A stretch of DNA of 64,000 nucleotides from Erwinia billingiae Eb661 (GTDB taxonomy: Bacteria; Pseudomonadota; Gammaproteobacteria; Enterobacterales; Enterobacteriaceae), in contig NC_014306.1 of NCBI RefSeq assembly GCF_000196615.1, positions 372,001 through 436,000 of the forward strand. Reading direction: 5' to 3'. Positions 10,476 to 22,183 of the stretch are shown in pieces (position 1 is the first letter of the stretch; each line of letters begins with the position of its first letter). The notes beneath the pieces are model-generated. The model was not told where the DNA came from. It saw only the letters and a list, made by a program, of their open reading frames with translations, and made no database searches. The translations under genes and the position numbers were made by a program.

Positions 10476-10808
10476 ATGAACGTATCGGATCTTCTGTCTT
10501 ACTGTATGGATAAGCCAGGCGCGGAGCAAAGCGTGCACAGCGACTGGAAAGCGACGCAAATTAAAGTGGATGATGTGCTGTTTGCGCTGGTGCATGAGGT
10601 GGATGGCCGACCGGCCGTGGCGTTGAAAGCCACACCGGCGCTGGCCGATTTACTGCGTGAAGCGCATACCGACGTCCGTCCCAGCGACCATCTGAATAAG
10701 TCGCACTGGAGTACCGTCCTGTTGGACGGCACCTTAAAGGATTCGCAGATCTATTATCTGGTCGATGCCTCGCTGCAAAAAGCGCTGGATACCCGCGGCG
10801 CCCATTAA
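10476..10808 (+). CDS. yjbR: YjbR, MmcQ/YjbR-family DNA-binding-like protein
   Basis: A 110-residue protein of the MmcQ/YjbR (CyaY-like fold) family of unknown function. Typical segments are CMDKPGAEQS, KVDDVLFALVHEVDGRPAVALK and NKSHWSTVLLDGTL. AAGGAGAA lies a few bases upstream. Its stop codon overlaps the stop of the convergent M20 gene in a TTAA shared by both. In E. coli uvrA is the next neighbour; here about 11 kb of accessory genes intervene. Confidence 0.92.
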   Translation: MNVSDLLSYCMDKPGAEQSVHSDWKATQIKVDDVLFALVHEVDGRPAVALKATPALADLLREAHTDVRPSDHLNKSHWSTVLLDGTLKDSQIYYLVDASLQKALDTRGAH

Positions 10809-11929
10809 TACTCAGCCGTTTCCCAGTCAACTATCAGCTGGCCATACAGCCTTTCCGCTTCGGCAAGGCGGCCCAGCAGGCAATACTCATCGGTCTGATG
10901 TGCCATGGTCGGCTCTCCTGGCCCCAAAATAATGCACGGCGGATTGCCCATTGCCGGCAACAGCAACGATGCATCGGTAAAGTAGGGGACGATTTTCGCC
11001 TCAATCGGCTGGTCGTGCAGCGGCTGACAACGCCGATACACGCCGGCAATCCAGCGGTTATCCTCTTCACTCAGCACCGCAGGCAGATCGACCAGCGTGG
11101 ACACCATCACCTTTTCGCCCAGCGTGGTGGTGAGGTTCTGACGGATGGTGGCGTGCTGCAGATTGGGTGCGGTACGAATATCCACATCAAACTGCGTGCG
11201 ATCCGGCACCGAATTAATATTCAGCCCGCCCTGGATGCGGCCAACGTTAATCGTCGGCTTCTTCATCAGTGGATGAGGCGCGCCAGGCGTAAAACTCTGG
11301 ATCTTGCCTAATGCTTCCGCCGCCAGATAAATGGCGTTGATCCCCAGCTCCGGCATCGCGCCGTGCGCCGTTTTGCCCTGCGTTTCGCACCGTAACCACA
11401 ACGCGCCTTTATGCCCAATCACCGGGTAGTTTGCCGTGGGTTCACCGACGATCAATGCGCCCACCGCCGGCAGATCGCCAGCCGAAATCAGCGCTTTCGC
11501 GCCGTCACAGCCGGTTTCTTCTCCGCCGGTGATCAGCAGTACCACGCCTGAACCCTGGCGGATCGCCGCCAGATTGTCCACGCAGGCCACGGCAAAAGCC
11601 GCCACGGCCGCTTTCATATCACTGGCGCCACGACCGTACAGACGATCCCCGTCGATCGACGATCCAAAAGGATCGTGCTGCCAGCGTTGATTGCCCAACG
11701 GCACGGTATCGAGATGGCCGGTGAAGCCCAGCGGATCGCCGGCGGTTTCGCCGACGATCCGCGCGATCAGGTTCACGCGATCCTCACCGAACCCGCTGAG
11801 CGTCACCTCAAAGCCATTGTCCTCCAGCCAGCCGGCAAAAAAGGCCATGCAGGCCGCTTCGTTGCCGGGCGGATTAATGGTATCGAAGCCCAGCAGGCGC
11901 TGGGCAAGCTGAAGCGTTCGATCGGTCAT
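10805..11929 (-). CDS. M20-family amidohydrolase/peptidase (ArgE/DapE type)
   Basis: A 374-residue dinuclear-zinc hydrolase of the ArgE/DapE/CPG2 group, which cleave N-acyl or peptide bonds of amino-acid derivatives. Seen: metal site GHLDTVP (His72, Asp74), bridging Asp and linker in GRGASDMKAAVAAF, the catalytic glutamates in TGGEETGCDGA, GEPTANYPVIGHKG, the dimerisation domain with KTAHGAMPELGINA, and the last ligand His in MAHQTDEY. It is the last gene of the five-gene minus-strand operon starting with the ABC ATPase, 43 bases after the amidotransferase-like gene. Its neighbours argue for catabolism of an imported amide-containing compound rather than arginine synthesis. Substrate unknown. 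Confidence 0.85.
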   Translation of the reverse strand: MTDRTLQLAQRLLGFDTINPPGNEAACMAFFAGWLEDNGFEVTLSGFGEDRVNLIARIVGETAGDPLGFTGHLDTVPLGNQRWQHDPFGSSIDGDRLYGRGASDMKAAVAAFAVACVDNLAAIRQGSGVVLLITGGEETGCDGAKALISAGDLPAVGALIVGEPTANYPVIGHKGALWLRCETQGKTAHGAMPELGINAIYLAAEALGKIQSFTPGAPHPLMKKPTINVGRIQGGLNINSVPDRTQFDVDIRTAPNLQHATIRQNLTTTLGEKVMVSTLVDLPAVLSEEDNRWIAGVYRRCQPLHDQPIEAKIVPYFTDASLLLPAMGNPPCIILGPGEPTMAHQTDEYCLLGRLAEAERLYGQLIVDWETAEY

Positions 11930-11972
11930 GCGCCGGACTCCTCAGGTGGGGACAGCAGGTTAGCCACGGCCA

Positions 11973-12728
11973 TTATGCCTTCTCCGTCAGCCAGTCCAGA
12001 CAGTTGACCCACAGCTGGCGATAGCCCGGCCAGGCGGCAAACTCCGTCGGCAGCCAGTGCGCAGACATATCGCTGGTCCAGACTAACGAGCGCCCTTGTT
12101 GATATTCGCGCACCGCGACCAGAGGATGCTCAGTGCCCGCGATGGTCGCCAGCAGCGTGCCTTCCGGATGCATCTCCACTTCGTTGTAGCCCAGCAGCCA
12201 CGGCCAGTCGCCCGAAATATCGTTGAACACCGCGTGTGACTCTTTGATCTCCGGATAAATGCCTTCCGGCGATTCAATCCGGTCATCCCAGGCCAGGCAG
12301 CGAACCGGCAGTACCTTTTCCACCGCGGTGTTGCGATAGCGCGCGCCACCGTTGATCCCCTGGAAACTGTAATAGCCGCCAATCATCATCAGGCTGCCGC
12401 CGCCGGCAACATAATCGTGGATCAACGCCAGACGATTCGGCGTGCGCTGGCTTTTCAGCCAGGTATCGGGATGCAGCAACAGCGTATTGGCACCGATATC
12501 GGAAAGGATAATCGCATCCCACTCCTGTAAGCCTGCCAGCGTCAGCGGAAAACTCACCGGCGCTTCATGGGCCGGCATATGCGTGATGGCGTAATCGCTG
12601 TCCGCCAGCGCGGTAAGAAAATCGGTGGCACCGTTGTGCCAGGTTGCCGTGGCGAACTGGTCGAAGCCCTTAACGTGTGTCGAGGTGCTGGTCCAGGATT
12701 CACCGACCAGCAGAATTTTCTTTGGCAT
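11973..12728 (-). CDS. Glutamine amidotransferase-like protein (GATase1-like, DUF1355)
   Basis: A 251-residue flavodoxin-like protein of the 'putative glutamine amidotransferase' group related to ThuA. The start KKILLVGESWTSTSTHVKGF, the WDAIILSDIGAN strand and GGSLMMIGGYYSFQGI are typical. At the nucleophile elbow the usual G-C-G of class I amidotransferases is IGGYYSF, so the catalytic cysteine is missing and glutaminase activity is not expected. The family often sits beside ribose-type ABC transporters and sugar-catabolic genes. Here it lies between the phosphotriesterase-related and M20 genes, 12 bases after the former, clearly co-transcribed. A role in carbohydrate or amide processing is inference. 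Confidence 0.75.
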   Translation of the reverse strand: MPKKILLVGESWTSTSTHVKGFDQFATATWHNGATDFLTALADSDYAITHMPAHEAPVSFPLTLAGLQEWDAIILSDIGANTLLLHPDTWLKSQRTPNRLALIHDYVAGGGSLMMIGGYYSFQGINGGARYRNTAVEKVLPVRCLAWDDRIESPEGIYPEIKESHAVFNDISGDWPWLLGYNEVEMHPEGTLLATIAGTEHPLVAVREYQQGRSLVWTSDMSAHWLPTEFAAWPGYRQLWVNCLDWLTEKA

Positions 12729-12740
12729 TATTCTCTCCCT

Positions 12741-13820
12741 TTACCCGCCAAATACGCGCTGCGGGTTAGCAATCATTAATGTTTCAAGCTGCTCACCACT
12801 GACGCCATGGCGGCGCAGACGGGGAACGAAATGTTTAAGGATGTAGCCGTAACCGTGGCCGCCGTAGCGGGTCAGCATGGTTTTGAGAAAAACATCCTGC
12901 GACAGCAGAATTTGCTGAATAAAGCCGTCATCGATCAGCTCGCGGATCGCCCGCGCATTCTCTTCATCAGAAGGCGACTGCGCAGACTCATCGGCGTAGT
13001 AGTAGCTCATGCCGATCATGTCGTATTCCAGAAAGGCACCGCGCTGCGCCAGTTCACGCTGATAACGTTTGTCAGCAAAACTGGGGTTCATATGGCACAG
13101 CACGGTATGACGCAGATCGGCGCCTTCCTGTTCCAGAATATCCAGCACCTTATGGCCCAGTCGTTCCCAACCCGGCAGGTGCACCTCAATCGGCACGCCG
13201 GTTGCCGCGCTGGCCCGGCCGGCGGCCCGCAACGACTTCTCTTCATCGGCGGTGAAGCGGCTGGAAACGCCGATTTCGCCAATCAGACCGGCAATCACCT
13301 CCGGCTTTTCGTCCGCGCCGCCGACATCGTAAATCAGCTTTTCGGTCAGCTGTTCGACGGAGATAGTCTTCACCCATTCGGGATGCGAAGGCTCCAGATA
13401 CAGGCCGGTGCCCATCACGATATTCAGCCCGGTCAGCCGGGAAATGCGTTGCAACGCTTTGGGATCGCGGCCGATGCCAATGTTGGTCGGGTCGATCACC
13501 GTCTGGCCGCCCAGCGCGCGGTACTTCATCAGCTCCTCGATGGCGACATCGACATCAAACAGCTGGCAGTTATCGCGGCTCATCAACGGGTTAAGCGACA
13601 GCTCGCCCAGATTTTCAATTTTGACCGGCATCTCGGCCACATGACGATCGCTACAGCAGCAGGGCGCCACCCACTTGCCGGACGCATCCAGCAGAATGTG
13701 TTCGTGCATCAGCGTCACGCCCATCTCACTCAGCGGCATCGGCCCCAATACGGTCATCACATGGCCACTGCTCACCCCAACGGGCAGGGGATCGGCATGG
13801 CGAAAAATAGACCCTTTCAT
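12741..13820 (-). CDS. Phosphotriesterase-related metal-dependent hydrolase
   Basis: A 359-residue amidohydrolase-superfamily TIM barrel of the PTE/PHP/lactonase group. Metal ligands visible: His39 and His41 in TLMHEHILLD, Glu in GLIGEIGVS at the position of the carbamylated lysine of true phosphotriesterases (E. coli Php also has Glu), then His in IEVHLPGW, His in VLCHMNPSF and Asp in LLSQDVF. A CCC cluster near residues 53-55 is unusual. Members hydrolyse lactones, phosphoesters or N-acyl amino acids; which applies here is unknown. It starts 3 bases after the permease gene and is followed by the amidotransferase-like and M20 genes, so it probably acts on the transported compound or an early intermediate. 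Confidence 0.85.
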   Translation of the reverse strand: MKGSIFRHADPLPVGVSSGHVMTVLGPMPLSEMGVTLMHEHILLDASGKWVAPCCCSDRHVAEMPVKIENLGELSLNPLMSRDNCQLFDVDVAIEELMKYRALGGQTVIDPTNIGIGRDPKALQRISRLTGLNIVMGTGLYLEPSHPEWVKTISVEQLTEKLIYDVGGADEKPEVIAGLIGEIGVSSRFTADEEKSLRAAGRASAATGVPIEVHLPGWERLGHKVLDILEQEGADLRHTVLCHMNPSFADKRYQRELAQRGAFLEYDMIGMSYYYADESAQSPSDEENARAIRELIDDGFIQQILLSQDVFLKTMLTRYGGHGYGYILKHFVPRLRRHGVSGEQLETLMIANPQRVFGG

Positions 13821-13823
13821 CAG

Positions 13824-14834
13824 CTATCCTTTCGAGGGCGCGCGCGCCGGGTTAAGAATGCGGGTGTTCAGCCAAATCGCCAGCAGGATGATGGTGCCGG
13901 TGGCAATCTGGGTATAAAACGGCGAGATATGCGACAGGATCAAACCGTTCTGAATGATGGCAATCGACAGAGCACCCAGCAGCGTGCCGATAATGGTGCC
14001 AAAGCCACCAAACAGGCTGGTACTGCCCAGCACCACCGCGGCAATCACCTGCAATTCAAAGCCTTCGCCCTGGTTTGAGGAACCGCTGCCCAGACGCGCG
14101 GTGATAATCATCCCGGCCAGTGCCGCCGCCATGCCGCTGATCATATAGACGCGCATCGTTACCGCTTTGGTGTTGATCCCGCTGCGGCGTGCGCCTTCGG
14201 TGTTGGCACCAATGGCGGTGACGTAACGGCCAAAGCGCATATGATTCAGCACGATATGACCGACAATCAGCACCACGATGCCAATCAGCGCCGGCATCGG
14301 AATGCCGACAACCCACGCGCGGCCCATCAAGGTAAACGGGCTGTCAGCCGGAATTGGAATCGAATAGCCCTGGGTGATCAGCAGCGCCACCCCGCGCACC
14401 ACCGCCAGCGTGGCGAGGGTGACGATAAAGGCGGGAATGCCTTCGTAAGCAATAAAGAAGCCGTTGATCGCCCCAACCAGCGCGCCGAGCATCAGGCCGC
14501 CAATCAGCACCACCGGCCAGGGCAGTCCCCAGCTCTTCAGGGCAATGGCCGACAGCGCGCCAACCAGCGCCAGCGTGGAGCCGACCGACAGATCGATACC
14601 GCCGGTGGTGATCACCAGCGTCATCGCGGTGGCGACAATCAGCAGCGGGGCGCTCTGACGGATGATATTCAGCCAGTTGGTGCTGCTGAGAAAGTTGCTG
14701 GTGATAAACGAGAACACCACGCAACAGAAGATGAAAAACAGCGCGATACTGACCACGCCAGAATGGCTGTGCAGCAGGCGGCGCGGCAGTGAATGCCGGA
14801 TCATGCGTGTACCGCTTAAATTGATCATACTCAT
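13824..14834 (-). CDS. Ribose-type ABC transporter permease
   Basis: A 336-residue inner-membrane permease of the RbsC/FrcB family with eight to ten helices. The family signature TLVITTGGIDLSVGSTLALVGA is present (in pieces), together with GRYVTAIGANTEGARRSGIN and the AAVVLGSTSLFGGFGTI stretch. I start it at ATG 14834 because GAGG lies 8 bases upstream and this leaves a 10-base gap to the ATPase gene; the open frame continues to 14888. It pairs with the ATPase just upstream and with the periplasmic protein encoded on the other strand at 17.4-18.3 kb. Such importers carry pentoses, hexoses, autoinducer-2, polyols or nucleosides. Confidence 0.9.
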   Translation of the reverse strand: MSMINLSGTRMIRHSLPRRLLHSHSGVVSIALFFIFCCVVFSFITSNFLSSTNWLNIIRQSAPLLIVATAMTLVITTGGIDLSVGSTLALVGALSAIALKSWGLPWPVVLIGGLMLGALVGAINGFFIAYEGIPAFIVTLATLAVVRGVALLITQGYSIPIPADSPFTLMGRAWVVGIPMPALIGIVVLIVGHIVLNHMRFGRYVTAIGANTEGARRSGINTKAVTMRVYMISGMAAALAGMIITARLGSGSSNQGEGFELQVIAAVVLGSTSLFGGFGTIIGTLLGALSIAIIQNGLILSHISPFYTQIATGTIILLAIWLNTRILNPARAPSKG

Positions 14835-14844
14835 CCCGTTTACC

Positions 14845-15627
14845 TCAGTGCGCGGCGGCTGAATGTGCGGTGAATTTCTCGCCGACAATCAGGTTAACGA
14901 TATCGCTGAGGCTGGTATCAGCCACCTGACGATCCGCCACGTTGGTGCCTTCGTACATCACCATGATGCGGTCACAGACCAGGAACAGATCCTGCAAGCG
15001 GTGGGTGACCAGAATAACGCTGACGCCACGCGCGCTGACGCGCCGGATCAGTTCAAGTACCGCTTCCACCTCGGCCACCGCCAGCGCGGCGGTCGGTTCG
15101 TCCATGATCAGCACCTTTGGCTCGAAGGCGGCCGCGCGAGCAATGGCAATCGCCTGGCGCTGACCGCCGGAGAGATTGCGCACCAGCAGGCGGGTATCCG
15201 GAATCGAAATGCCCAATCCTTTCAGCATTTCCCGCGCATCGGCATGCATTTTTGCCTGGTCGAGAAACGGGATGCCCAGCAGATGCTTCAGCGGTTCGCG
15301 GCCCATAAACAGATTGCCGGCCACGTCAACGGTGTCGCACAGCGACAGATCCTGATAAACCATTTCGATATGACACCGGCGGGCGTCCGCCGGATTGGTA
15401 AAGTGCATCTCTTCACCATCAATGCGGATCGCGCCGCTGGTGGGCACCACCGCGCCGGAAAGCACTTTGGTCAGCGTGGATTTCCCCGCGCCGTTATCAC
15501 CCACCAGGCCCAACACTTCACCCGGCGCCAGCTTGAGGTTCACCCCGCGCAGCGAGCGGATCGCGCCGTAGGTCTTGGTGATATTGACCATTTCTACCCG
15601 CGCTCTGGCAGGCTGTGGCTGTTGCAT
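14845..15627 (-). CDS. Ribose-type ABC transporter ATP-binding protein (single domain)
   Basis: A 260-residue cytoplasmic ATPase. Walker A is GDNGAGKST, the Q-loop VYQDLSL, the signature LSGGQRQAIAIARA, Walker B VLIMDEPTAAL and the H-loop VTHR. It has only one nucleotide-binding domain, as in rhizobial FrcA, whereas RbsA-type subunits have two. The start at 15627 is preceded by GGGAG six bases away; the frame stays open to 15780 without similarity. It is the first gene of the operon ATPase-permease-hydrolase-amidotransferase-like-M20, and two palindromic operators lie in the 370 bases upstream. Confidence 0.9.
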   Translation of the reverse strand: MQQPQPARARVEMVNITKTYGAIRSLRGVNLKLAPGEVLGLVGDNGAGKSTLTKVLSGAVVPTSGAIRIDGEEMHFTNPADARRCHIEMVYQDLSLCDTVDVAGNLFMGREPLKHLLGIPFLDQAKMHADAREMLKGLGISIPDTRLLVRNLSGGQRQAIAIARAAAFEPKVLIMDEPTAALAVAEVEAVLELIRRVSARGVSVILVTHRLQDLFLVCDRIMVMYEGTNVADRQVADTSLSDIVNLIVGEKFTAHSAAAH

Positions 15628-15736
15628 CGTTGACTCCCATCGCAGTTCGTTTATGAGGGAAAACCCTCTCGCCAGACATCGATTACCCGGGACGGTGATG
15701 GCCGAAAAGGGTTCCGCTGGTCGCGGTCTACTTCTT

Positions 15737-15750
15737 GTAAACCGGTTTAC
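15737..15750. promoter_or_regulatory. LacI-type operator 1, GTAAACCGGTTTAC
   Basis: A perfect 14-bp palindrome with a central CG step, the hallmark of LacI/PurR-family operators. It lies 110 bases upstream of the ATPase start, adjacent to the gene for a LacI-family repressor, and an identical 14-mer occurs 170 bp away. Confidence 0.82.
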
Positions 15751-15905
15751 CTGAACAGCGGAACTGTCTCCAGTGCACATCGGGACAAAACGCTAACTAT
15801 TTGTTCGCCACTGATGACTAAGCAGCTTCCATGCCAGGCTTGTGAGGAGGGCGGAGAGAGGATTTCTAATTGGCTGTAATCTAATAGGATAATTTTAAAT
15901 GTATC

Positions 15906-15921
15906 GGTAAACCGGTTTACC
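15906..15921. promoter_or_regulatory. LacI-type operator 2, GGTAAACCGGTTTACC
   Basis: A perfect 16-bp palindrome containing the same core as operator 1, centred exactly 170 bp from it, about 16 helical turns. Two in-phase identical sites between lacI-type gene and target operon suggest repression by looping (inference). The 15628-15997 gap contains no coding sequence I can support. Confidence 0.82.
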
Positions 15922-15997
15922 CGATGGCTCATCGCCTGAAAGGGTTGAACAGTTTTTGCGCCAAAGTTGTGCGATTACTGCGCCATTTTGGACCGGG

Positions 15998-17011
15998 CTA
16001 ACGTGATTGAATGGAATCGCGTCCAATCCAGGTGACCGGCAGGCGGGTTTCGGCAGGGACATTTTCCTCGCCTTTTAGCAGCCGCAGCATCAGGCTGACC
16101 GCGGTTCTGCCCAGTTCCCGTGCGGGTTGGCGAATGGTGGAAATGCGCGGTTGGGTGAAATCGGCGTAGCTGGCGTCATCGAAGCCAACCAGCGATAAAT
16201 CCTCTGGTGCACGCAGGCCCAGTTCCCGCAAACCATCTAACAAACCGAGCACCAGAAAATCACTGGCGGCAAAGATCGCCGTCGGGCGGATCGCCTTGCT
16301 GAACAGCGTGTGCAGCGCCTGCTGACCGAACTCGCGCTGATATTCGCCGTACATCACCCACTCTGGCGGACAGTGTAAACCGGCCTGCGCCAGCGCGGTG
16401 CAAAAACCCTGGTAACGTTCGCGCACGCTCATCAGCTCATCGGGCCCGCCGATAAAGGCGATCTGCTGGTGGCCAGCGGCAATCAGCTGCTGGGTGGCGA
16501 TAAAGCCACCCTGAACGTTGTCGGCAAACACCTTTGGTACCTTGCTGCCGGGGATATCTTCATCCAGCAGGACAATGCGCTGATGGCGCTGGATCTCACG
16601 ACATAACAGGCCGTTATCCGGGCGGTTAGTGGTAAACAGCAGGCCATCAACCTGGCAGGTATCCAGCCAGCGAATAAACTGCGTCTCTTTTTCGGGATTG
16701 TTCCGGGTGATGCACAGCACCAGGCTGTAACCGTGTTCGAAAGCGGCTTCTTCTGCCGCATCGGCCAGTTCGGCAAAGAAGGGGTTGGTAATATCCGGCA
16801 GCACCAGGCCGAGCGTTTCGCTACCGCCTTTACTCAGCCGGCGGGCGAGGCTGTTTCCGCGATAATCCAGCTCGGCAATCGCGGATTCAATGCGCGCAAT
16901 GGTCTCTTGTGGCAGCACAATACTGTTGTTCAGATAGCGGGAAACCGTCGCTTTCGACAGTCCCGCATGGGATGCCACATCGGAGAGCAAAACGCGTTTT
17001 TTAATCATCAT
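15998..17011 (-). CDS. LacI-family transcriptional repressor of the catabolic island
   Basis: A 337-residue repressor with an N-terminal helix-turn-helix (LLSDVASHAGLSKATVSRYL, then the hinge helix around NSLARRLSKG) and a periplasmic-binding-protein-like effector domain (LGLVLPDITNPFFAELADAA, IAFIGGPDEL, IFAASDFLVLGLL, LVGFDDASYADF). It resembles GntR/RbsR-type members. Start choice is uncertain: tandem ATGs at 17011 and 17008 and a GTG at 17020. It sits between the minus-strand transport/hydrolase operon and the divergent binding-protein gene, ideally placed to control both; the palindromes at 15737 and 15906 are its probable sites. Confidence 0.9.
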   Translation of the reverse strand: MMIKKRVLLSDVASHAGLSKATVSRYLNNSIVLPQETIARIESAIAELDYRGNSLARRLSKGGSETLGLVLPDITNPFFAELADAAEEAAFEHGYSLVLCITRNNPEKETQFIRWLDTCQVDGLLFTTNRPDNGLLCREIQRHQRIVLLDEDIPGSKVPKVFADNVQGGFIATQQLIAAGHQQIAFIGGPDELMSVRERYQGFCTALAQAGLHCPPEWVMYGEYQREFGQQALHTLFSKAIRPTAIFAASDFLVLGLLDGLRELGLRAPEDLSLVGFDDASYADFTQPRISTIRQPARELGRTAVSLMLRLLKGEENVPAETRLPVTWIGRDSIQSR

Positions 17012-17105
17012 GCCGGCCACATCAGAAAAAGAAGGGTATCTGTAACATAGTTAAGCGCCGCTGTTATACCCTTTTCGCTGCAATTCGCGCTGGCAAAAAT
17101 AGCGC

Positions 17106-17137
17106 TTGACAAAAAAACGGCCAGAGAGAATTGTAAT
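17106..17137 (+). promoter_or_regulatory. Putative promoter of the binding-protein gene
   Basis: TTGACA (17106-17111) is a perfect -35 box. TGTAAT (17132-17137) is a near-consensus -10 but the spacing of 20 is long. An imperfect operator half CAGTTTAC (17141-17148) follows, 7 of 8 bases like the half-site of the two palindromes, which could bring this promoter under the same repressor. The leader from here to the start codon is about 230 bases. Confidence 0.4.
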
Positions 17138-17365
17138 AGGCAGTTTACCTGCATGACCCGGGAAGAGATTCCCACCCGTTTAAGAGACATTTTATCCCTG
17201 CACCGAAATGGACCGGCTGCCTAAATGTTTTTTTCACGGTTTCACCTTAACGCCCCCATTTCTACCGGGTGTTTACGCCATCACGCTACTATTTGCCCTG
17301 CCATCCATAATTCCGCCCGGTGTATTTTACGCCGAGGTAGAGATTTAATCCCATTGAGGATCATG

Positions 17366-18319
17366 ATGATGGTTTTTAACACCGGAAAATTGCGAATTGT
17401 AGCCCTGGCAACCGTTTTACTGGCTTCTGGCAGTTATATGACCTCGGCGCTGGCAGCAGCACCGACTTATGCATTAGTGCAGATTAATCAGCAGGCGTTG
17501 TTTTTCAACCTGATGAATAAAGGTGCGCAAGACGCGGCGAAAGCCAGCGGCAAAGATCTGGTGATCTTTAACGCCACGGATAATCCCGTTGCCCAGAATG
17601 ATGCCATCGAAAACTATATTCAGCAGGGTGTGAAGGGCATATTAGTCGATGCGATTGATGTGAACGGCATTATGCCGGCAATTAAAGAAGCCGCAGCGGC
17701 GAAAATCCCGGTCATCGCCATTGATGCCGTGCTGCCAGACGGTCCTCAGGCCGCGCAGGTGGGCGTGGACAACATCGAAGGCGGCAAAATTCTCGGCCGA
17801 TACTTCGTTGATTACGTTAAAAAAGACATGGGTGGCAAGGCACGCGTCGGCATCGTCGGTGCGCTGAACTCGGCTATCCAGAATGACCGTCAGAAAGGCT
17901 TTGAAGAGACGATTAAAAGCAATAAACAGATTACCGTTGCGGACGTGGTCGATGGCCAGAATATTCAAGACAACGCGATGACCGCGGCGGAAAACCTGAT
18001 CACCGGTAACCCGGATATCACCGCAATTTATGCCACAGGTGAACCGGCGCTGCTTGGCGCGATTGCGGCGGTAGAAAACCAGGGTCGCCAGAAAGATATC
18101 AAAGTCTTTGGCTGGGATCTGACCGCGAAAGCCATCAGCGGCATTGATGGTGGCTACGTCACCGCGGTATTGCAGCAGGATCCGCAGAAGATGGGCGAAG
18201 AAGCGTTAAAAGCCCTGAATGAGATTACCGCCGGTAAAACGGTACCGAAGCGTATTTTGGTGCCGGCAACCGTGGTCACCAAAGACAATGTCGGTCCCTA
18301 TCGCACGCTGTTTAAATAA
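17366..18319 (+). CDS. Periplasmic sugar-binding protein of ribose-type ABC transporter
   Basis: A 317-residue exported binding protein of the RbsB type. The signal peptide covers about 30 residues (basic FNTGKLRI, hydrophobic VALATVLLASG, cleavage near SALA/AAPTYALV). The mature part has two Rossmann-like lobes: NLMNKGAQDAAKASGKDLVI, GVKGILVDAIDVNGI, VGVDNIEGGKILGRYF, ITAIYATGEPALLGAIAA and VFGWDLTAKAISGIDGG. Three ATGs stand in tandem (17363, 17366, 17369); GAGGA at 17356-17360 best suits the second or third. It is divergent from the repressor and probably feeds the permease/ATPase pair on the minus strand. Confidence 0.9.
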   Translation: MMVFNTGKLRIVALATVLLASGSYMTSALAAAPTYALVQINQQALFFNLMNKGAQDAAKASGKDLVIFNATDNPVAQNDAIENYIQQGVKGILVDAIDVNGIMPAIKEAAAAKIPVIAIDAVLPDGPQAAQVGVDNIEGGKILGRYFVDYVKKDMGGKARVGIVGALNSAIQNDRQKGFEETIKSNKQITVADVVDGQNIQDNAMTAAENLITGNPDITAIYATGEPALLGAIAAVENQGRQKDIKVFGWDLTAKAISGIDGGYVTAVLQQDPQKMGEEALKALNEITAGKTVPKRILVPATVVTKDNVGPYRTLFK

Positions 18320-18326
18320 GGCTGAA

Positions 18327-18348
18327 GGCCCACATGAAACTGTGGGCC
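18327..18348. terminator. Hairpin between convergent binding-protein and kinase genes
   Basis: GGCCCAC (18327-18333) and GTGGGCC (18342-18348) form a perfect 7-bp stem with an 8-nt loop in the 36-base gap between two convergent genes. It lacks a strong T run on either side but may stop transcription from both. Confidence 0.5.
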
Positions 18349-18355
18349 CTGCAGT

Positions 18356-19216
18356 TTAGTTTTGCAGTAAGGCGGTCAGTTCGCTGATGCTGGGGAACGC
18401 GCTGTAGGTTCCGGCACGGCTAACGGTAATGGCAGCCGCCTGACTGGCATGAGTGAGTGCTAACTTATCAATCTCTGTATGACGCAGCAACGCAGAGGCC
18501 AGCATCACTGCCAGAAAGGTATCGCCAGCGCCGGTACTGTCGACAGCCGTCACCGCGATTGCGCGACAAAACGCTTCGTTATCAGGGGCTTTGAGCAACG
18601 CGCCCTGTGAACCGTGAGTGACCACTAACGTTTTGACCCCTTCTGGCTTCAGCAGCGCCGCTTCATGCTGATTGAGGACGGCAATATCGACCAGAGACCA
18701 GAGCTCAGCGAAGGCGGCTTTGACCGGTGAAGGGTTAAACACGGTGATCATGCCACGGGCCTTGGCGAACGCGAACAGGCCACGGGTTTTCTCAACGGAG
18801 AAATTACCCTGTTGCAGCAAAACGTCACCGGGCTGGGCGGCAGAAAGCGCCTGCGTAATCCCGGTGAGCGATAATGAATCCGCCGCGGTGGTGGTGGTGA
18901 TAATGGCATTATCACCGTCGGCGCTATTGAAAATAATTGAGGTATCACTGTGACAAGGGAATAACGTGTCAGGCAACAGTTGCAGGGATTCAGCGAGCAT
19001 CTGCTCTTTGATCCACTTGCCATTATTGTCATTTCCGATCGCGGCAACTAACGTTGTTTCTATGCCGCAGCGGGAAAGTAATATTGCCTGATTGGCGCCC
19101 TTGCCACCGATATCTTGTGACGTTTTATTGCCATGAATGGATGAGCCTTTTGTGGGAATATCGGGAATTGACCAGATTTCATCGACGGCTATATTCCCGG
19201 TGACATAAACACGCAT
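18356..19216 (-). CDS. PfkB-family carbohydrate kinase (ribokinase-like)
   Basis: A 286-residue kinase of the PfkB/ribokinase family. Signature 1 is QDIGGKGANQAILLSRCG; signature 2 with the catalytic base is AVDSTGAGDTFLAVM; TLVVTHGSQGALL and the alternating core are typical. Such enzymes phosphorylate ribose, deoxyribose, other sugars or nucleosides; the ligand is not evident. AAGGA just upstream of ATG 19216 is a good ribosome site. It is transcribed against its neighbours, and its start is only 27 bases from the start of the divergent btpA-like gene, so its promoter must reach into that gene. It probably phosphorylates the imported sugar moiety (inference). Confidence 0.88.
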   Translation of the reverse strand: MRVYVTGNIAVDEIWSIPDIPTKGSSIHGNKTSQDIGGKGANQAILLSRCGIETTLVAAIGNDNNGKWIKEQMLAESLQLLPDTLFPCHSDTSIIFNSADGDNAIITTTTAADSLSLTGITQALSAAQPGDVLLQQGNFSVEKTRGLFAFAKARGMITVFNPSPVKAAFAELWSLVDIAVLNQHEAALLKPEGVKTLVVTHGSQGALLKAPDNEAFCRAIAVTAVDSTGAGDTFLAVMLASALLRHTEIDKLALTHASQAAAITVSRAGTYSAFPSISELTALLQN

Positions 19217-19243
19217 AGTGTTTCCTTGAACAGGATGAAGAAG

Positions 19244-20089
19244 ATGGTTTCTATATCAGCAGGAAAAAAAGACGCAATACAAGCTATTTTTTCACGTAAG
19301 AAAGTGGTCATTGGTGTTATTCATTGTGACCCTTTTCCCGGCACGCCGAAATACAGAGGGAAAACAATCGGCGATATTATTGAGCGTGCGTTACGCGATG
19401 CGGATAATTATGTTTCCGGCGGCGTTCATGGCCTGATAATTGAAAACCACGGCGATATTCCTTTTTCTAAACCGGAAGATATCGGCCCGGAAACGGCGGC
19501 GCTGATGGCAGTGATCACCGAAAAGGTGCGCACCCGTTTTAACGTGCCGTTAGGCATCAACGTGCTGGCAAATGCGGCGATCCCTGCGCTGGCTACCGCG
19601 CTTGCCGGCGGCGCCGACTTTATCCGCGTCAATCAATGGGCCAACGCCTACATCGCCAACGAAGGCTTTATCGAAGGTGCGGCGGCCAAAGCGCTGCGCT
19701 ATCGCAGCCAGCTGCGCGCTGAACACATCAAGGTCTTTGCCGACAGCCACGTTAAGCATGGCAGCCATGCCATCGTCGCCGACCGCTCAATTCAGGAACT
19801 GACCCGTGACGTCGACTTCTTTGAAGCCGATGCGGTGATCGCCACCGGTCAGCGCACTGGCGACAGCGCCACGCTGAGCGAAATTGATGAGATCCGCGGG
19901 GCCACCGAATTGCCGCTGCTGGTGGGATCGGGCGTTACGCCGGATAACGTTGGCCAGATCCTGTCGCGTACCCAGGGCGTGATCGTCGCCAGCGCGCTGA
20001 AGGTGGATGGCGTCTGGTGGAATGAGGTTGAGCTGGCGCGGGTGAAGCATTTTATGGCTGCGGCGGCGTCCGTGTTGGAGGGCGAATAG
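19244..20089 (+). CDS. BtpA/SgcQ-family protein
   Basis: A 281-residue predicted TIM-barrel protein of the BtpA family (photosystem I biogenesis protein BtpA in cyanobacteria, SgcQ in the E. coli sgc sugar operon). Seen: VVIGVIHCDPFPGTPKYRGK, HGLIIENHGDIPFSKPEDIG, GADFIRVNQWANAYIANEG, KVFADSHVKHGSHAI, ADAVIATGQRTGDS and LLVGSGVTPDN, a phosphate-binding-like loop. In bacteria outside cyanobacteria the family occurs in sugar-catabolic operons, so a (phospho)sugar lyase or isomerase is plausible but unproven. ATG 19244 has AGGA eight bases before it; an ATG at 19235 and a TTG at 19226 are alternatives. The next gene starts right after its stop. Confidence 0.82.
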   Translation: MVSISAGKKDAIQAIFSRKKVVIGVIHCDPFPGTPKYRGKTIGDIIERALRDADNYVSGGVHGLIIENHGDIPFSKPEDIGPETAALMAVITEKVRTRFNVPLGINVLANAAIPALATALAGGADFIRVNQWANAYIANEGFIEGAAAKALRYRSQLRAEHIKVFADSHVKHGSHAIVADRSIQELTRDVDFFEADAVIATGQRTGDSATLSEIDEIRGATELPLLVGSGVTPDNVGQILSRTQGVIVASALKVDGVWWNEVELARVKHFMAAAASVLEGE

Positions 20090-20731
20090 ATGGAAACCTT
20101 CAGCGATCGTTTGCTGCGGGAGCATCAGGGAGCCTGGCATGAGATGCAGCAGCATCGCTTTGTCTGCGAGATTGAGCAGGACGTTTTGTCTGCCGACGTT
20201 TTCAATCGCTACCTGGTGTTTGAAGGTAACTTTGTCGCCACCGCCATCGCCATCTTCGCGCTGGGCGTCAGTAAAGCGCCCGATATTCGTCAGCAGCGCT
20301 GGTTGATCGGCGTGCTGAATGCGCTGGTCGATACGCAGATTGCCTGGTTTGACACGGTGCTGGCCAAACGGCAGGTCAATCCGGCCGGTTATCCGGACGA
20401 TCTGCCTGGCGTCAGACGATTTCGCGACGGCATGCTGAACGTAGCCCAGCGCGGCAGCTATGAAGAGATCATCACCTTGATGTTCGGCGCGGAGTGGATG
20501 TATTACCACTGGTGCAAGCGCGTCAGCCTGAAAACGCAATCCGATGAAGATGTGCGACGGTGGATTGAGCTGCACGCGGAAGAGGAATTTTTCCTGCAGG
20601 CCAGCTGGTTAAAAACGGAGTTGGATCGCTGTGCGGCACAACTGAGCGCCGAGCAGAAATTCGCGCTGTCTGACCTGTATGGCAAGGTACTGAAGTGGGA
20701 AATTGATTTCCATAGCGCCGCCTATGCGTAA
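20090..20731 (+). CDS. TenA-like protein (TenA/THI-4/PQQC family) without the catalytic cysteine
   Basis: A 213-residue all-helical protein of the TenA family, whose studied members (thiaminase II) hydrolyse aminopyrimidines for thiamine salvage. Typical segments are YLVFEGNFVATAIAIFALGV, FGAEWMYYHWCKRV and the late acidic stretch WIELHAEEEFFLQASWL. In Bacillus TenA the nucleophile cysteine lies two residues before the W in PCYWLYY; here the same block is GAEWMYY, so Ala134 replaces it and Glu135 is adjacent. This resembles the cysteine-less TenA_E type. ATG 20090 follows the btpA-like stop without a gap and GGAGG lies upstream, so the two are translationally linked. A sugar-linked pyrimidine or related amine is one possible substrate. 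Confidence 0.8.
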   Translation: METFSDRLLREHQGAWHEMQQHRFVCEIEQDVLSADVFNRYLVFEGNFVATAIAIFALGVSKAPDIRQQRWLIGVLNALVDTQIAWFDTVLAKRQVNPAGYPDDLPGVRRFRDGMLNVAQRGSYEEIITLMFGAEWMYYHWCKRVSLKTQSDEDVRRWIELHAEEEFFLQASWLKTELDRCAAQLSAEQKFALSDLYGKVLKWEIDFHSAAYA

Positions 20732-20848: not shown

Positions 20849-21904
20849 TTACTGGTTGCGTAAGGTATCGATGTCGATCACAAAGCGGTATTTCACATCG
20901 CTTTTCAGCATACGTTCGTAGGCGTCGTTCACTTCATCCATCTTGATCATTTCGATATCAGAGGTGATGTTGTGCTTACCGCAGAAATCCAGCATCTCCT
21001 GCGTTTCTTTAATGCCACCGATCAGAGAACCGGCCACGCTGCGACGTTTGAACACCAGGTTAACCACCTGGGGTGCCGGGTGGTCATGTTCTGGCACGCC
21101 GACCAGGGTCATGGTGCCATCGCGACGCAGCAGGGTGATGAACTGGTTCAGATCGTGCTGAGCGGCAACGGTGTTCAGAATAAAGTCGAAGCTGTTGGTG
21201 TGCGCCGCCATCTGCTCAGGATCTTTGGAAATGACCACTTCATCTGCGCCCAGGCGCTTGCCGTCTTCGATTTTAGAGGGAGAAGTGGTAAACAGCACCA
21301 CATGTGCGCCCATCGCATGAGCAATTTTCACGCCCATGTGACCCAGACCGCCGAGACCAACGATACCGACTTTCTTACCCGGACCGACTTTCCAGTGGTG
21401 CAGAGGCGAGAAGGTGGTGATGCCCGCACACAGCAGTGGCGCTGCGCCAGCCGGATCCAGGTTCTCAGGAATACGCAGCACGAAGTCTTCGTTAACGATT
21501 ACCTGAGTGGAGTAGCCGCCGTAGGTGATGTCGCCGGAAATGCGGTCTTCGCCGTTATACGTGCCGGTGAAACCGTTTTCACAGTACTGCTCCAGGTCTT
21601 CTTTACAGCTGTCGCACTCGCGACAGGAATCAACCAGACAGCCAACGCCAACTAAATCGCCCACTTTATATTTATGGGTATGTCCGCCAACAGCGGTAAC
21701 ACGGCCGACGATTTCATGGCCAGGGACGACAGGAAAAATGGTGTTTTTCCACTCGTTACGGGCCTGATGCAGATCCGAGTGGCAGACGCCACAGAACATA
21801 ACTTCAATCTGGACATCGTGTTCACGCAGTTCGCGCGGCTGGAACTCAAACGGAGCCAGCTTTGATTTGGCGTCCTGTGCGGCATAAGCATGCGTAATAT
21901 TCAT
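20849..21904 (-). CDS. Zinc-dependent NAD(P)-linked alcohol dehydrogenase (CAD/YahK-like)
   Basis: A 351-residue medium-chain dehydrogenase of the cinnamyl-alcohol/YahK group that reduces a range of aldehydes. Catalytic zinc residues are in CGVCHSDLHQARNEW and GHEIVGRV (His-Glu); structural zinc cysteines in CLVDSCRECDSCKEDLEQYC; the cofactor motif is GIVGLGGLGHMGVKIAHAMG, followed by TTSPSK, which in this group favours NADPH. ATG 21904 gives the family length; the frame runs five codons further. It is a single gene between two terminators, so its link to the catabolic island is positional only. The gap 21905-22183 holds no gene I can recognise. Confidence 0.9.
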   Translation of the reverse strand: MNITHAYAAQDAKSKLAPFEFQPRELREHDVQIEVMFCGVCHSDLHQARNEWKNTIFPVVPGHEIVGRVTAVGGHTHKYKVGDLVGVGCLVDSCRECDSCKEDLEQYCENGFTGTYNGEDRISGDITYGGYSTQVIVNEDFVLRIPENLDPAGAAPLLCAGITTFSPLHHWKVGPGKKVGIVGLGGLGHMGVKIAHAMGAHVVLFTTSPSKIEDGKRLGADEVVISKDPEQMAAHTNSFDFILNTVAAQHDLNQFITLLRRDGTMTLVGVPEHDHPAPQVVNLVFKRRSVAGSLIGGIKETQEMLDFCGKHNITSDIEMIKMDEVNDAYERMLKSDVKYRFVIDIDTLRNQ

Positions 21905-22183
21905 GGTGTCTCCAGTCATTGAAAGTGTTTAGAACTTATTGCTTAGAGGATGTTCTGACAGACCGTGCTGGCAGAATCGGTGTAGGGAGTCGAGCCCATT
22001 AAGGATAGTTAGCTATTGGCAAAGGGGGTATGCCGGAACCTGTCTAAATCTTGCCTGATCCTGCAGGATTTGCTCTGAAGCGGCAAAACGAAGGGGAAAA
22101 GAGCGCTAATTTGTTGCTGAGTGTGGAGTTTATTTCTTCATGTAAATCAAATAAAACTGTCATCCGCCCGGCGGACGGCGGCG

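Follow-up and report, generated by a model that had tools for sequence, protein, structure and literature searches.

Which compound is served by the ten genes that lie between yjbR and uvrA, two genes that we take to be adjacent in E. coli, in Erwinia billingiae Eb661? The original prediction, made on the 64,000-nucleotide stretch of DNA that we call the window, had read them as a self-contained system that takes up and breaks down a sugar conjugate with an amide- or amine-bearing part. Open reading frames and family-model matches placed the cluster intact at 10805..20731 (Table 1) and bore out the families and positions given for the M20, phosphotriesterase-family (PTE), permease, ATPase, LacI, binding, PfkB, BtpA and TenA-like proteins. 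One cluster gene, that of the GATase1_like protein, had been left without a name. The permease probably starts at 14834, which fits ortholog lengths of 1002–1011 bp, and the likely true starts are 15594–15633 for the ATPase (orthologs 747 bp) and 17360 for the binding protein. The nearest NCBIfam models, all below cut-off, were ribose permease for the permease, DapE/ArgE-type enzymes for the M20 protein, and CytR (231 bits) and RbsR (227 bits) for the LacI regulator.

Table 1 Genes of the cluster and the adjoining dehydrogenase gene, in window coordinates
Feature	Position	Strand	Family evidence or remark
M20 metallo-amidohydrolase, DapE/ArgE-like	10805..11929	-	PF01546 and PF07687 above cut-off
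GATase1_like protein	11973..12728	-	PF07090, 366 bits
PTE-family binuclear metal hydrolase	12741..13820	-	PF02126, 228.6 bits
ABC permease, ribose type	13824..14888	-	PF02653
ABC ATPase	14845..15780	-	PF00005, one stretch (one ATPase domain)
LacI-family regulator	15998..17020	-	PF00356 and PF00532
Periplasmic binding protein	17225..18319	+	PF13407
PfkB-family kinase	18356..19216	-	PF00294; Asn138 replaces ribokinase Glu143
BtpA/SgcQ-family protein	19226..20089	+	PF03437 and TIGR00259 above cut-off; start 19226 or 19244
TenA-like protein	20090..20731	+	PF03070 above cut-off; no thiaminase cysteine
Zinc alcohol dehydrogenase	20849..21919		between cluster and uvrA

The same gene set recurs in other genomes, and the grouping is therefore beyond chance. 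Around BtpA, in the best 80 of 409 BtpA loci (on contigs of unequal length, with L038, L042 and L071 cut), a PfkB gene was present in 80/80, the ABC parts in 78–79, PTE in 76, TenA in 72 (8 without a copy), GATase1_like in 70 and M20, an optional member of the set, in 46 (34 without a copy); the counts for ATPase, LacI, importer and M20 rest on a 38% identity limit and possibly include paralogs. For the residue counts given below, orthologs with a stop or below the identity or coverage limits were excluded, leaving 80 PfkB, 79 binding, 76 PTE, 72 TenA, 44 M20 and 68 GATase1_like sequences, to each of which the window's own was added. Among 247 Enterobacterales genomes, our own included, BtpA occurred in four at E 1e-100, and the same four carried PTE and three of them TenA. 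Across 274 genomes of the class, just five, our own included, had BtpA at E 1e-30, too few for a co-occurrence test there. The genes thus do co-occur elsewhere, as the original prediction required, and their recurrence supports the idea of a self-contained uptake and breakdown system. Its carriers include members of the Enterobacterales and of the Alphaproteobacteria, and several come from plants or soil; in Rhizobium johnstonii 3841 the copy lies on pRL9. The claim that no pathway with this gene set had been described held as well: the literature searched, which lacks most subscription journals, described no identical operon whose substrate is proven, nor did it yield a paper on the cluster itself (terms BtpA, SgcQ, PF07090, STM3548, Pmi1525, 5HSG, 3K2G and 3I3Y).

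Calling the cluster an island, on the other hand, proved too strong. It adjoins yjbQ, yjbR and/or uvrA in 11 of these best 80 of 409 loci, in several genera, and its G+C content (56.7%) is so near that of its flanks (54.7% and 55.5%) that composition gives no sign of recent arrival. The yjbR–uvrA gap measures 1.3–1.4 kb in four genomes of the same genus in which BtpA has no match, and because the dehydrogenase adjoins yjbR in both of those inspected (L106 and L107), it belongs to the site and not to the cluster. The E. coli collection held no near match to the cluster DNA.

To ask what the kinase might act on, we compared it with the seven ribose-binding residues of ribokinase, as defined in the accessible part of PMC9604405. 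Asp16, Gly42, Lys43, Asn46 and Asp255 were retained in 81/81 kinases, Asn14 in 0/81, and the Glu143 column held Asn in 81/81. The loss of Asn14 is weak evidence, because changing its equivalent in Arabidopsis ribokinase to Ala leaves ribose activity largely intact (PMC9604405, same part) and the pseudouridine kinase PsuK itself has Asn14. The Asn of the cluster kinases shares its alignment column with Asn143 of PsuK, which holds N3/O4 of uracil according to PMC9247573. The PsuK contacts Tyr97, Met114 and Lys170 become Ser (84/84), mostly Thr, and Asn (84/84), in a stretch where the local alignment is unsure and two alignments differ, and Lys43, retained in the cluster kinases, is absent from PsuK. 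Asn at 143 was also seen in 3/3 kinases beside other BtpA genes (Shinella L095, Rhizobium L096 and Roseomonas L102), and kinases at our genome's second BtpA locus and in Mesorhizobium had neither Asn nor Glu there. No aligned kinase adjoining BtpA had Glu143, which was present in 4/5 kinases that lie by GATase1_like but not next to BtpA. Judged from these residues, the cluster kinase is not a plain ribokinase.

The same comparison bears on a simpler explanation, in which PTE, M20 or GATase1_like would free ribose from an acyl-ribose or a ribosyl ester or amide and PfkB, as a true ribokinase, would convert it to ribose 5-phosphate for use in central metabolism. The closest solved kinases, about 65% identical, are 3ikh (with ATP and glycerol) and 3i3y, a Klebsiella protein titled ribokinase with D-ribose, which therefore binds at least the free sugar (the structure model of the window's kinase is modest, with mean pLDDT 74 and a poor last third, and served just for the titles of solved relatives). 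This explanation also draws on the dispensability of Asn14 in the plant enzyme and on Salmonella RikA, from a related locus, which lies beside GATase1_like and PTE and, according to PMC13432705, has ribokinase activity both in vitro and in vivo. It is opposed by the uniform exchange of Glu143 for Asn, given that related loci without an adjoining BtpA mostly keep Glu, and by ribose 5-phosphate having no need of BtpA, which pairs with kinases elsewhere; we consider it unlikely but by no means negligible.

The importer also departs from a ribose system. Measured against what we take to be the ribose-contact set of RbsB, the binding proteins lack the full set: six contacts (F15, F16, D89, R141, D215 and Q235) were retained and five altered in 80/80, with N13, F164, N190 and F214 replaced by A, N, G and W, and R90 by A or S. 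The closest solved chain is 5hsg (543 bits). The exchange of Phe214 for Trp is one to a larger residue, which counts against a nucleoside. Since each set is one family, the agreement among 81 kinases and among 80 binding proteins represents one evolutionary event. The likeliest sugar is a ribosyl group that carries a substituent at C1, as in a nucleoside.

BtpA scored well above cut-off in both of its families (PF03437, 232.9 against 30; TIGR00259, 221.3 against 153.4), and by sequence it had one weak match among solved structures. Its structure model (mean pLDDT 85, pTM 0.88) resembled TrpA, ThiE, HisA, HisF and TrpF-like barrels, and we predict a phosphate-binding TIM barrel of the TrpA/ThiE/HisA kind, many barrels being so nearly tied that the matches pick out no single chemistry. 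This class of barrel spans many chemistries. His27, Asp71, Arg128, Asp167, His169 and Lys171 are candidates for residues that line the active site. Kinase or PTS genes adjoin other BtpA genes, and a Halostagnicola BtpA has no adjoining sugar kinase. The literature searched gave no enzymatic activity for the BtpA/SgcQ family.

HisA and TrpF among these matches would suit a substrate of another type, an N-ribosyl amine or amino acid, whose phosphorylated adduct BtpA would isomerise in the manner of TrpF/HisA, as in an Amadori rearrangement, before amidases or TenA took off the amine. A Roseomonas copy in which an oligopeptide-type ABC importer stands by GATase1_like, BtpA and PfkB fits this scheme, as does a Ti-plasmid GATase1_like gene near genes for fructoselysine 6-kinase, SIS and hydantoinase, although a LysR gene intervenes there and these neighbours may form a separate unit. 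An SIS-type deglycase is not among the ten proteins, however, and a nucleoside is the better match both for an importer of the ribose type and for the kinase's Asn143 signature, so that we hold a glycosylamine to be distinctly improbable.

The remaining enzymes would deal with the other half of the conjugate. The six metal ligands that we take to define PTE (HxH/E/H/H/D) were found in 77/77 sequences, and the M20 metal ligands in 45/45, save one gap at one position. GATase1_like has the solved relatives 2gk3 and 3soz (STM1381). For PTE the closest solved chain was 3k2g (413 bits), for which we found no function, followed by 3rhg (Pmi1525, 205 bits) and 9efa, perhaps an animal PTER; residues of mouse PTER were mapped onto 9efa, where the numbering disagreed, and no claim was drawn. 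Pmi1525 reportedly has methylphosphonate esterase activity. If PTE worked as such an esterase, as proposed for Pmi1525, the cluster would break down a phosphonate or phosphate ester; the names of Pmi1525 and of the esterase occur together in PMC5341072. With 3k2g closer to PTE than Pmi1525 is, no phosphonate genes among the ten and two or more other amidohydrolases present, we find this scarcely credible.

The TenA-like protein exceeded the PF03070 cut-off (59.1 bits against 22) and did not reach that of the thiaminase II equivalog (56.7 against 130). When aligned to solved TenA chains, it lacked the catalytic cysteine of thiaminase II, whose column is filled by Ala134 in 73/73 sequences; Glu45, Glu135 and Glu204 were likewise found in 73/73. 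TenA_E is the cysteine-less form of TenA, to which the cluster protein could belong, and YlmB is an M20 protein. Salvage of the thiamine pyrimidine thus comes into view, with M20 or TenA deformylating N-formyl-aminopyrimidine and hydroxymethylpyrimidine being released: there are precedents, in the portion of PMC10470507 consulted, in Bacillus, where YlmB performs the deformylation and TenA_C acts on the product, and in Arabidopsis, where TenA_E prefers the formyl compound itself. Such salvage leaves no role for the sugar kinase, BtpA or the ribose-type importer, and a TenA match is absent from those 8 of the best 80 of 409 loci; we regard it as very unlikely. A carbamoylase-family gene follows TenA or BtpA in 14/34 alphaproteobacterial loci and in 0/46 others (again the best 80 of 409), and also occurs in the Shinella and Rhizobium loci L095 and L096 and in Sinorhizobium L088. 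This amidase of some rhizobial copies points to a ureido or cyclic-amide aglycone. An argument from a lack of other hydantoinase or carbamoylase genes in our genome was dropped: elsewhere in it one carbamoylase-family match exceeds the cut-off, and one hydantoinase-family match is full-length but falls below its own.

Gene content and conservation, the signature residues and the fold prediction for BtpA are results of the analysis; from them we infer a substrate class, an order of steps and each of the reactions. We tentatively propose, as a reading that is quite possible though short of probable, that the operon serves catabolism of an imported ribonucleoside-like compound, in which D-ribosyl is linked through C1 to an amide or ureido (cyclic amide) part, by way of PfkB and BtpA. 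The ABC importer would bring in the intact conjugate and PfkB would phosphorylate the 5'-OH of its ribosyl group. BtpA would split, or first rearrange, the phosphoribosyl conjugate to give a pentose phosphate and the aglycone, as PsuG does with pseudouridine 5'-phosphate. PTE, TenA and M20, joined in some rhizobia by the carbamoylase-family amidase, would then open the aglycone and remove acyl, carbamoyl or amino groups, and LacI would detect the substrate or an intermediate. The sugar–amide or sugar–amine conjugate of the original prediction fits this reading and is narrowed by it to a C1-substituted ribosyl group with a ureido or cyclic-amide aglycone, with a TenA that lacks the cysteine and an M20 that is optional. 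Against it count the loss of TenA and of M20 from some copies, the breadth of chemistry in the BtpA barrel class, the Halostagnicola BtpA that has no kinase beside it, the D-ribose structure of the closest solved kinase and the ribokinase activity of RikA. The literature and structures searched contained no nucleoside complex, assay or phenotype for these proteins.

A bolder version, which we think rather doubtful, is that BtpA is a new phosphonucleoside-splitting enzyme, unrelated to PsuG and built on a phosphate-binding TrpA/HisA barrel, and that the operon degrades a modified ribonucleoside with a saturated or ureido-type base, for which it would be the first route. PfkB would form the 5'-phosphate, BtpA would free the base, and the PTE-type amidohydrolase with the carbamoylase or TenA would degrade it. 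Dihydrouridine from tRNA may be named as an example, purely as a guess that the sequence does not single out; a literature search combining dihydrouridine and PfkB turned up nothing on the cluster. Were BtpA to split phosphonucleosides, the orphan BtpA/SgcQ family would gain a function. More broadly, BtpA/SgcQ, GATase1_like and a cysteine-less TenA outside thiamine salvage, whose reactions are unsettled, share one operon here, so that the identity of the substrate would give reactions to all three, bear on the role of SgcQ in E. coli and reveal a compound taken up by these bacteria, several of which come from plants. The signatures of kinase, importer and BtpA narrow the question to a few assays.

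Set beside known systems, the cluster is nearest to a published Salmonella locus, STM3547–3550 (rikA), in which PfkB, GATase1_like and PTE genes likewise stand side by side and for which the available part of PMC13432705 gives no proven substrate. In that part of the paper, the Salmonella locus has a DMT transporter where the cluster has an ABC importer, its kinase gene starts with a DeoR domain, and BtpA and TenA are not mentioned; the kinases of the rikA-like loci L110 and L111, unlike that of the cluster, retain Asn14 and Glu143. The E. coli sgc operon combines BtpA/SgcQ with sugar-phosphorylating PTS genes and with SgcX, annotated as a putative protein with a Zn exopeptidase domain, but differs in its PTS import, its epimerase SgcE and its distant BtpA, all sgc annotations being putative. 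The rbs operon of E. coli has a related binding protein, permease, ATPase and kinase and a LacI-type regulator in common with the cluster, in which the kinase and binding-protein contacts are altered, no RbsD-type gene is found among the ten and five further enzymes are present. PsuK/PsuG of E. coli pair a PfkB kinase carrying Asn143, as in the cluster, with an adjoining gene for the phosphonucleoside-splitting PsuG, whose glycosidase family is, by family models, not among the ten proteins. In its place the cluster has BtpA, the putative splitter, and it further differs in its additional amidohydrolases, in an ABC importer of its own and, as far as the uncertain alignment shows, in the loss of several PsuK base contacts.

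Comparison of open reading frames and family profiles in the window identified ten intact genes, arranged as listed below. The original prediction had placed the cluster genes correctly, and every gene it named is present, but it left the GATase1_like (PF07090) gene unnamed. The named protein closest to the window's BtpA is from Erwinia (96%).

Coordinates and strands of the cluster genes, in order, and of the gene that follows
Feature	Coordinates	Strand	Remark
Whole cluster	10805-20731		ten genes
M20		minus	
GATase1_like	11973-12728	minus	
PTE		minus	
Permease		minus	
ATPase		minus	
LacI		minus	
Binding protein		plus	
PfkB		minus	
BtpA		plus	
TenA		plus	
Zinc alcohol dehydrogenase	20849-21919		after cluster, before uvrA

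A scan of public genomes with the BtpA protein returned 409 relatives, the best 80 of which were kept for locus counts. Besides BtpA, present in 80/80 by construction, these best 80 of 409 carry PfkB (80), LacI and the binding protein (79 each), the ATPase and permease (78 each), PTE (76), TenA (72), GATase1_like (70) and M20 (46), a few genes being missing because of contig ends (L038, L042, L071). The co-occurrence of BtpA, TenA and PTE, for which the original prediction suggested a search, extends beyond the window. Gene order varies between Enterobacterales and Alphaproteobacteria, whereas the set is largely kept. Among 247 Enterobacterales genomes, the window's own included, BtpA (E 1e-100 or better) and PTE (E 1e-100) occur in the same four, TenA (E 1e-30) in three of these, and GATase1_like (E 1e-15) in seven, the four among them. 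Annotated copies bear family names only; they occur on megaplasmids of Pantoea, on plasmids of Rhizobium and Paracoccus and in one Klebsiella record. The cluster is a real, widespread and uncharacterised catabolic operon. In Klebsiella pneumoniae CP125156.1 (L085), recorded as a 5.4 Mb plasmid but resembling a chromosome, an IS1-family transposase gene lies within the PfkB gene, which matches as two pieces.

BtpA was matched (E 1e-60 or better) in seven of 31 genomes searched, own included; in all seven the closer copy lies within ~13 kb of uvrA, and in four, again including our own, yjbR is on the cluster's other flank. The yjbR-uvrA gap is 1.3-1.4 kb in four relatives without BtpA (G519, G522, G525, G535), in two of which the DNA was read and the dehydrogenase adjoins yjbR (L106, L107). 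Also without BtpA are G532 (L109), with a ~5 kb gap holding the dehydrogenase and no cluster gene, and G533, with a gap of 7.4 kb. The congeneric G527 (L105) keeps M20 through the binding protein, with no PfkB, BtpA or TenA; the uvrA match in that genome contains a stop. In 11 of the best 80 of 409 loci, spread over several genera, the cluster has yjbQ or yjbR and/or uvrA as neighbours (L006, L007, L016-L018, L020, L032, L033, L046-L048). Given this recurrent site and the cluster's ordinary G+C, the locus looks long established and patchily lost or exchanged rather than newly acquired; of the predicted 'catabolic island' the self-contained set stands, while 'island' seems too strong a word.

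The main new observation concerns the kinase. Among solved chains PfkB is closest to 3i3y, whose title names a Klebsiella ribokinase with D-ribose, and to 3ikh. Seven ribose contacts are reported for E. coli ribokinase (PMC9604405); in the alignment, Asp16, Gly42, Lys43, Asn46 and Asp255 are retained in 81/81 PfkB proteins, Glu143 is Asn in 81/81, and Asn14 is replaced in 81/81 by Ala, Thr, Val, Gly, Ser or Cys. The substituted Asn shares its column with Asn143 of E. coli pseudouridine kinase PsuK, reported to contact the base at N3 and O4 (PMC9247573), but Lys43 is retained as in ribokinase and other PsuK base contacts appear to be absent, in a stretch where the alignment is uncertain. The Asn14 change alone is weak evidence, because a plant ribokinase reportedly tolerates Ala there (PMC9604405), PsuK itself retains the Asn and Ile occupies the position in a plant pseudouridine kinase (PMC9247573). 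Both Asn14 and Glu143 are kept in four kinases beside GATase1_like with no BtpA seen adjacent (two from Rhodococcus, plus those of L110 and L111); a fifth, poorly aligned, fused to a LacI-type DNA-binding domain (L066:12945-14120), does not keep them. Judged from these sequences, the altered kinase appears to pair with BtpA, in a small sample whose 81 kinases represent one family. In the own genome PfkB and BtpA recur in a second small operon (L097, G000:C3 ~611-614 kb), together with a regulator that by eye is of GntR type and with no importer or amidase recognised adjacent; its BtpA is 49% identical to the window's, and its kinase also lacks Glu143.

The importer's binding protein was compared with E. 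coli RbsB at the ribose contacts of the latter, in mature-protein numbering. Phe15, Phe16, Asp89, Arg141, Asp215 and Gln235 are kept in 80/80 binding proteins; Asn13, Phe164, Asn190 and Phe214 become Ala, Asn, Gly and Trp in 80/80, and Arg90 becomes Ala or Ser. Most changes go to smaller residues (Phe214 to Trp excepted), as would suit a ligand larger than ribose. A second importer with a DapE-like M20 gene comes straight after TenA in L010, L015, L019, L028 (11513-16508), L045 and L049; in Pantoea dispersa its annotation gives an AI-2-type binding protein and two permeases. In L059, L063, L066 (12945-20015) and L072 this second importer comes after the carbamoylase and is accompanied by a second GATase1_like gene; HTH-PfkB was checked in L066 only.

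All six PTE metal ligands are retained (77/77). Among solved structures 3k2g comes closest (413 bits), followed at ~200 bits by Pmi1525 and a phosphotriesterase-related protein; mammalian PTER, reported as an amidase for N-acetyltaurine, has 3k2g as its model's best structural match (PMC11374699). TenA retains Glu45, Glu135 and Glu204, with Ala134 at the thiaminase cysteine position (73/73 each). Of the 34 alphaproteobacterial loci (class taken from record titles) among the best 80 of 409, 14 carry a hydantoinase/carbamoylase-family gene, against 0 of the remaining 46; the gene follows TenA in 12 and BtpA in the two where TenA is missing (L067, L084), and L060 is a fifteenth, with the gene in a neighbouring unit. 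It also follows BtpA in Sinorhizobium L088, Shinella L095 and Rhizobium L51/94 (L096), where TenA had no match; both proteins scored (L066, L095) passed the family cut-off. Combined, the PTE, TenA and carbamoylase evidence suggests that the compound contains amide or ureido bonds. GATase1_like accompanies PTE and PfkB (Salmonella type, L110, L111), PfkB and LacI (Rhodococcus), or a nitrilase and M24 protein (L098); given these varied partners, its target may be either the nitrogen part or the sugar. The L098 set (K. pneumoniae plasmid NZ_CP055176.1, typed as conjugative) pairs a 55% identical GATase1_like with nitrilase-family and M24 proteins, a sulfonate/taurine-type importer and LacI. In L101 (pTiA47a) the gene has trbI on one side and, on the other, beyond a LysR gene, genes for hydantoinase A/B, SIS and fructoselysine 6-kinase; it may be part of an opine-type set.

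Our best explanation, tentative and at somewhat less than even confidence, is catabolism of a nucleoside-like ribosyl compound, a reading in which Asn14 and the TenA cysteine are given reduced weight. The ribosyl conjugate would be taken up, 5'-phosphorylated, cleaved or rearranged by BtpA, and its aglycone hydrolysed by PTE, TenA and M20. The amide-bearing sugar conjugate first proposed is upheld in outline and refined to this ribosyl compound. There is a modest chance that BtpA could reveal a new enzyme type. In line with the original prediction, no described pathway with the ten-gene set was found, nor any account of a BtpA reaction, in the literature covered, which excludes most subscription journals. 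The nearest published relative, described in a June 2026 study, is the Salmonella STM3547 locus, where a kinase with ribokinase activity lies beside GATase1_like, a transporter and PTE, and which its authors suggest acts on an as yet unnamed substrate (PMC13432705). The L110 kinase, fused to a DeoR-type DNA-binding domain (L110:3556-4770), is reminiscent of Salmonella RikA, whose 90-residue extension was reportedly not found in the isolated protein (PMC13432705); recurrence of the domain in another genome suggests that it is used.
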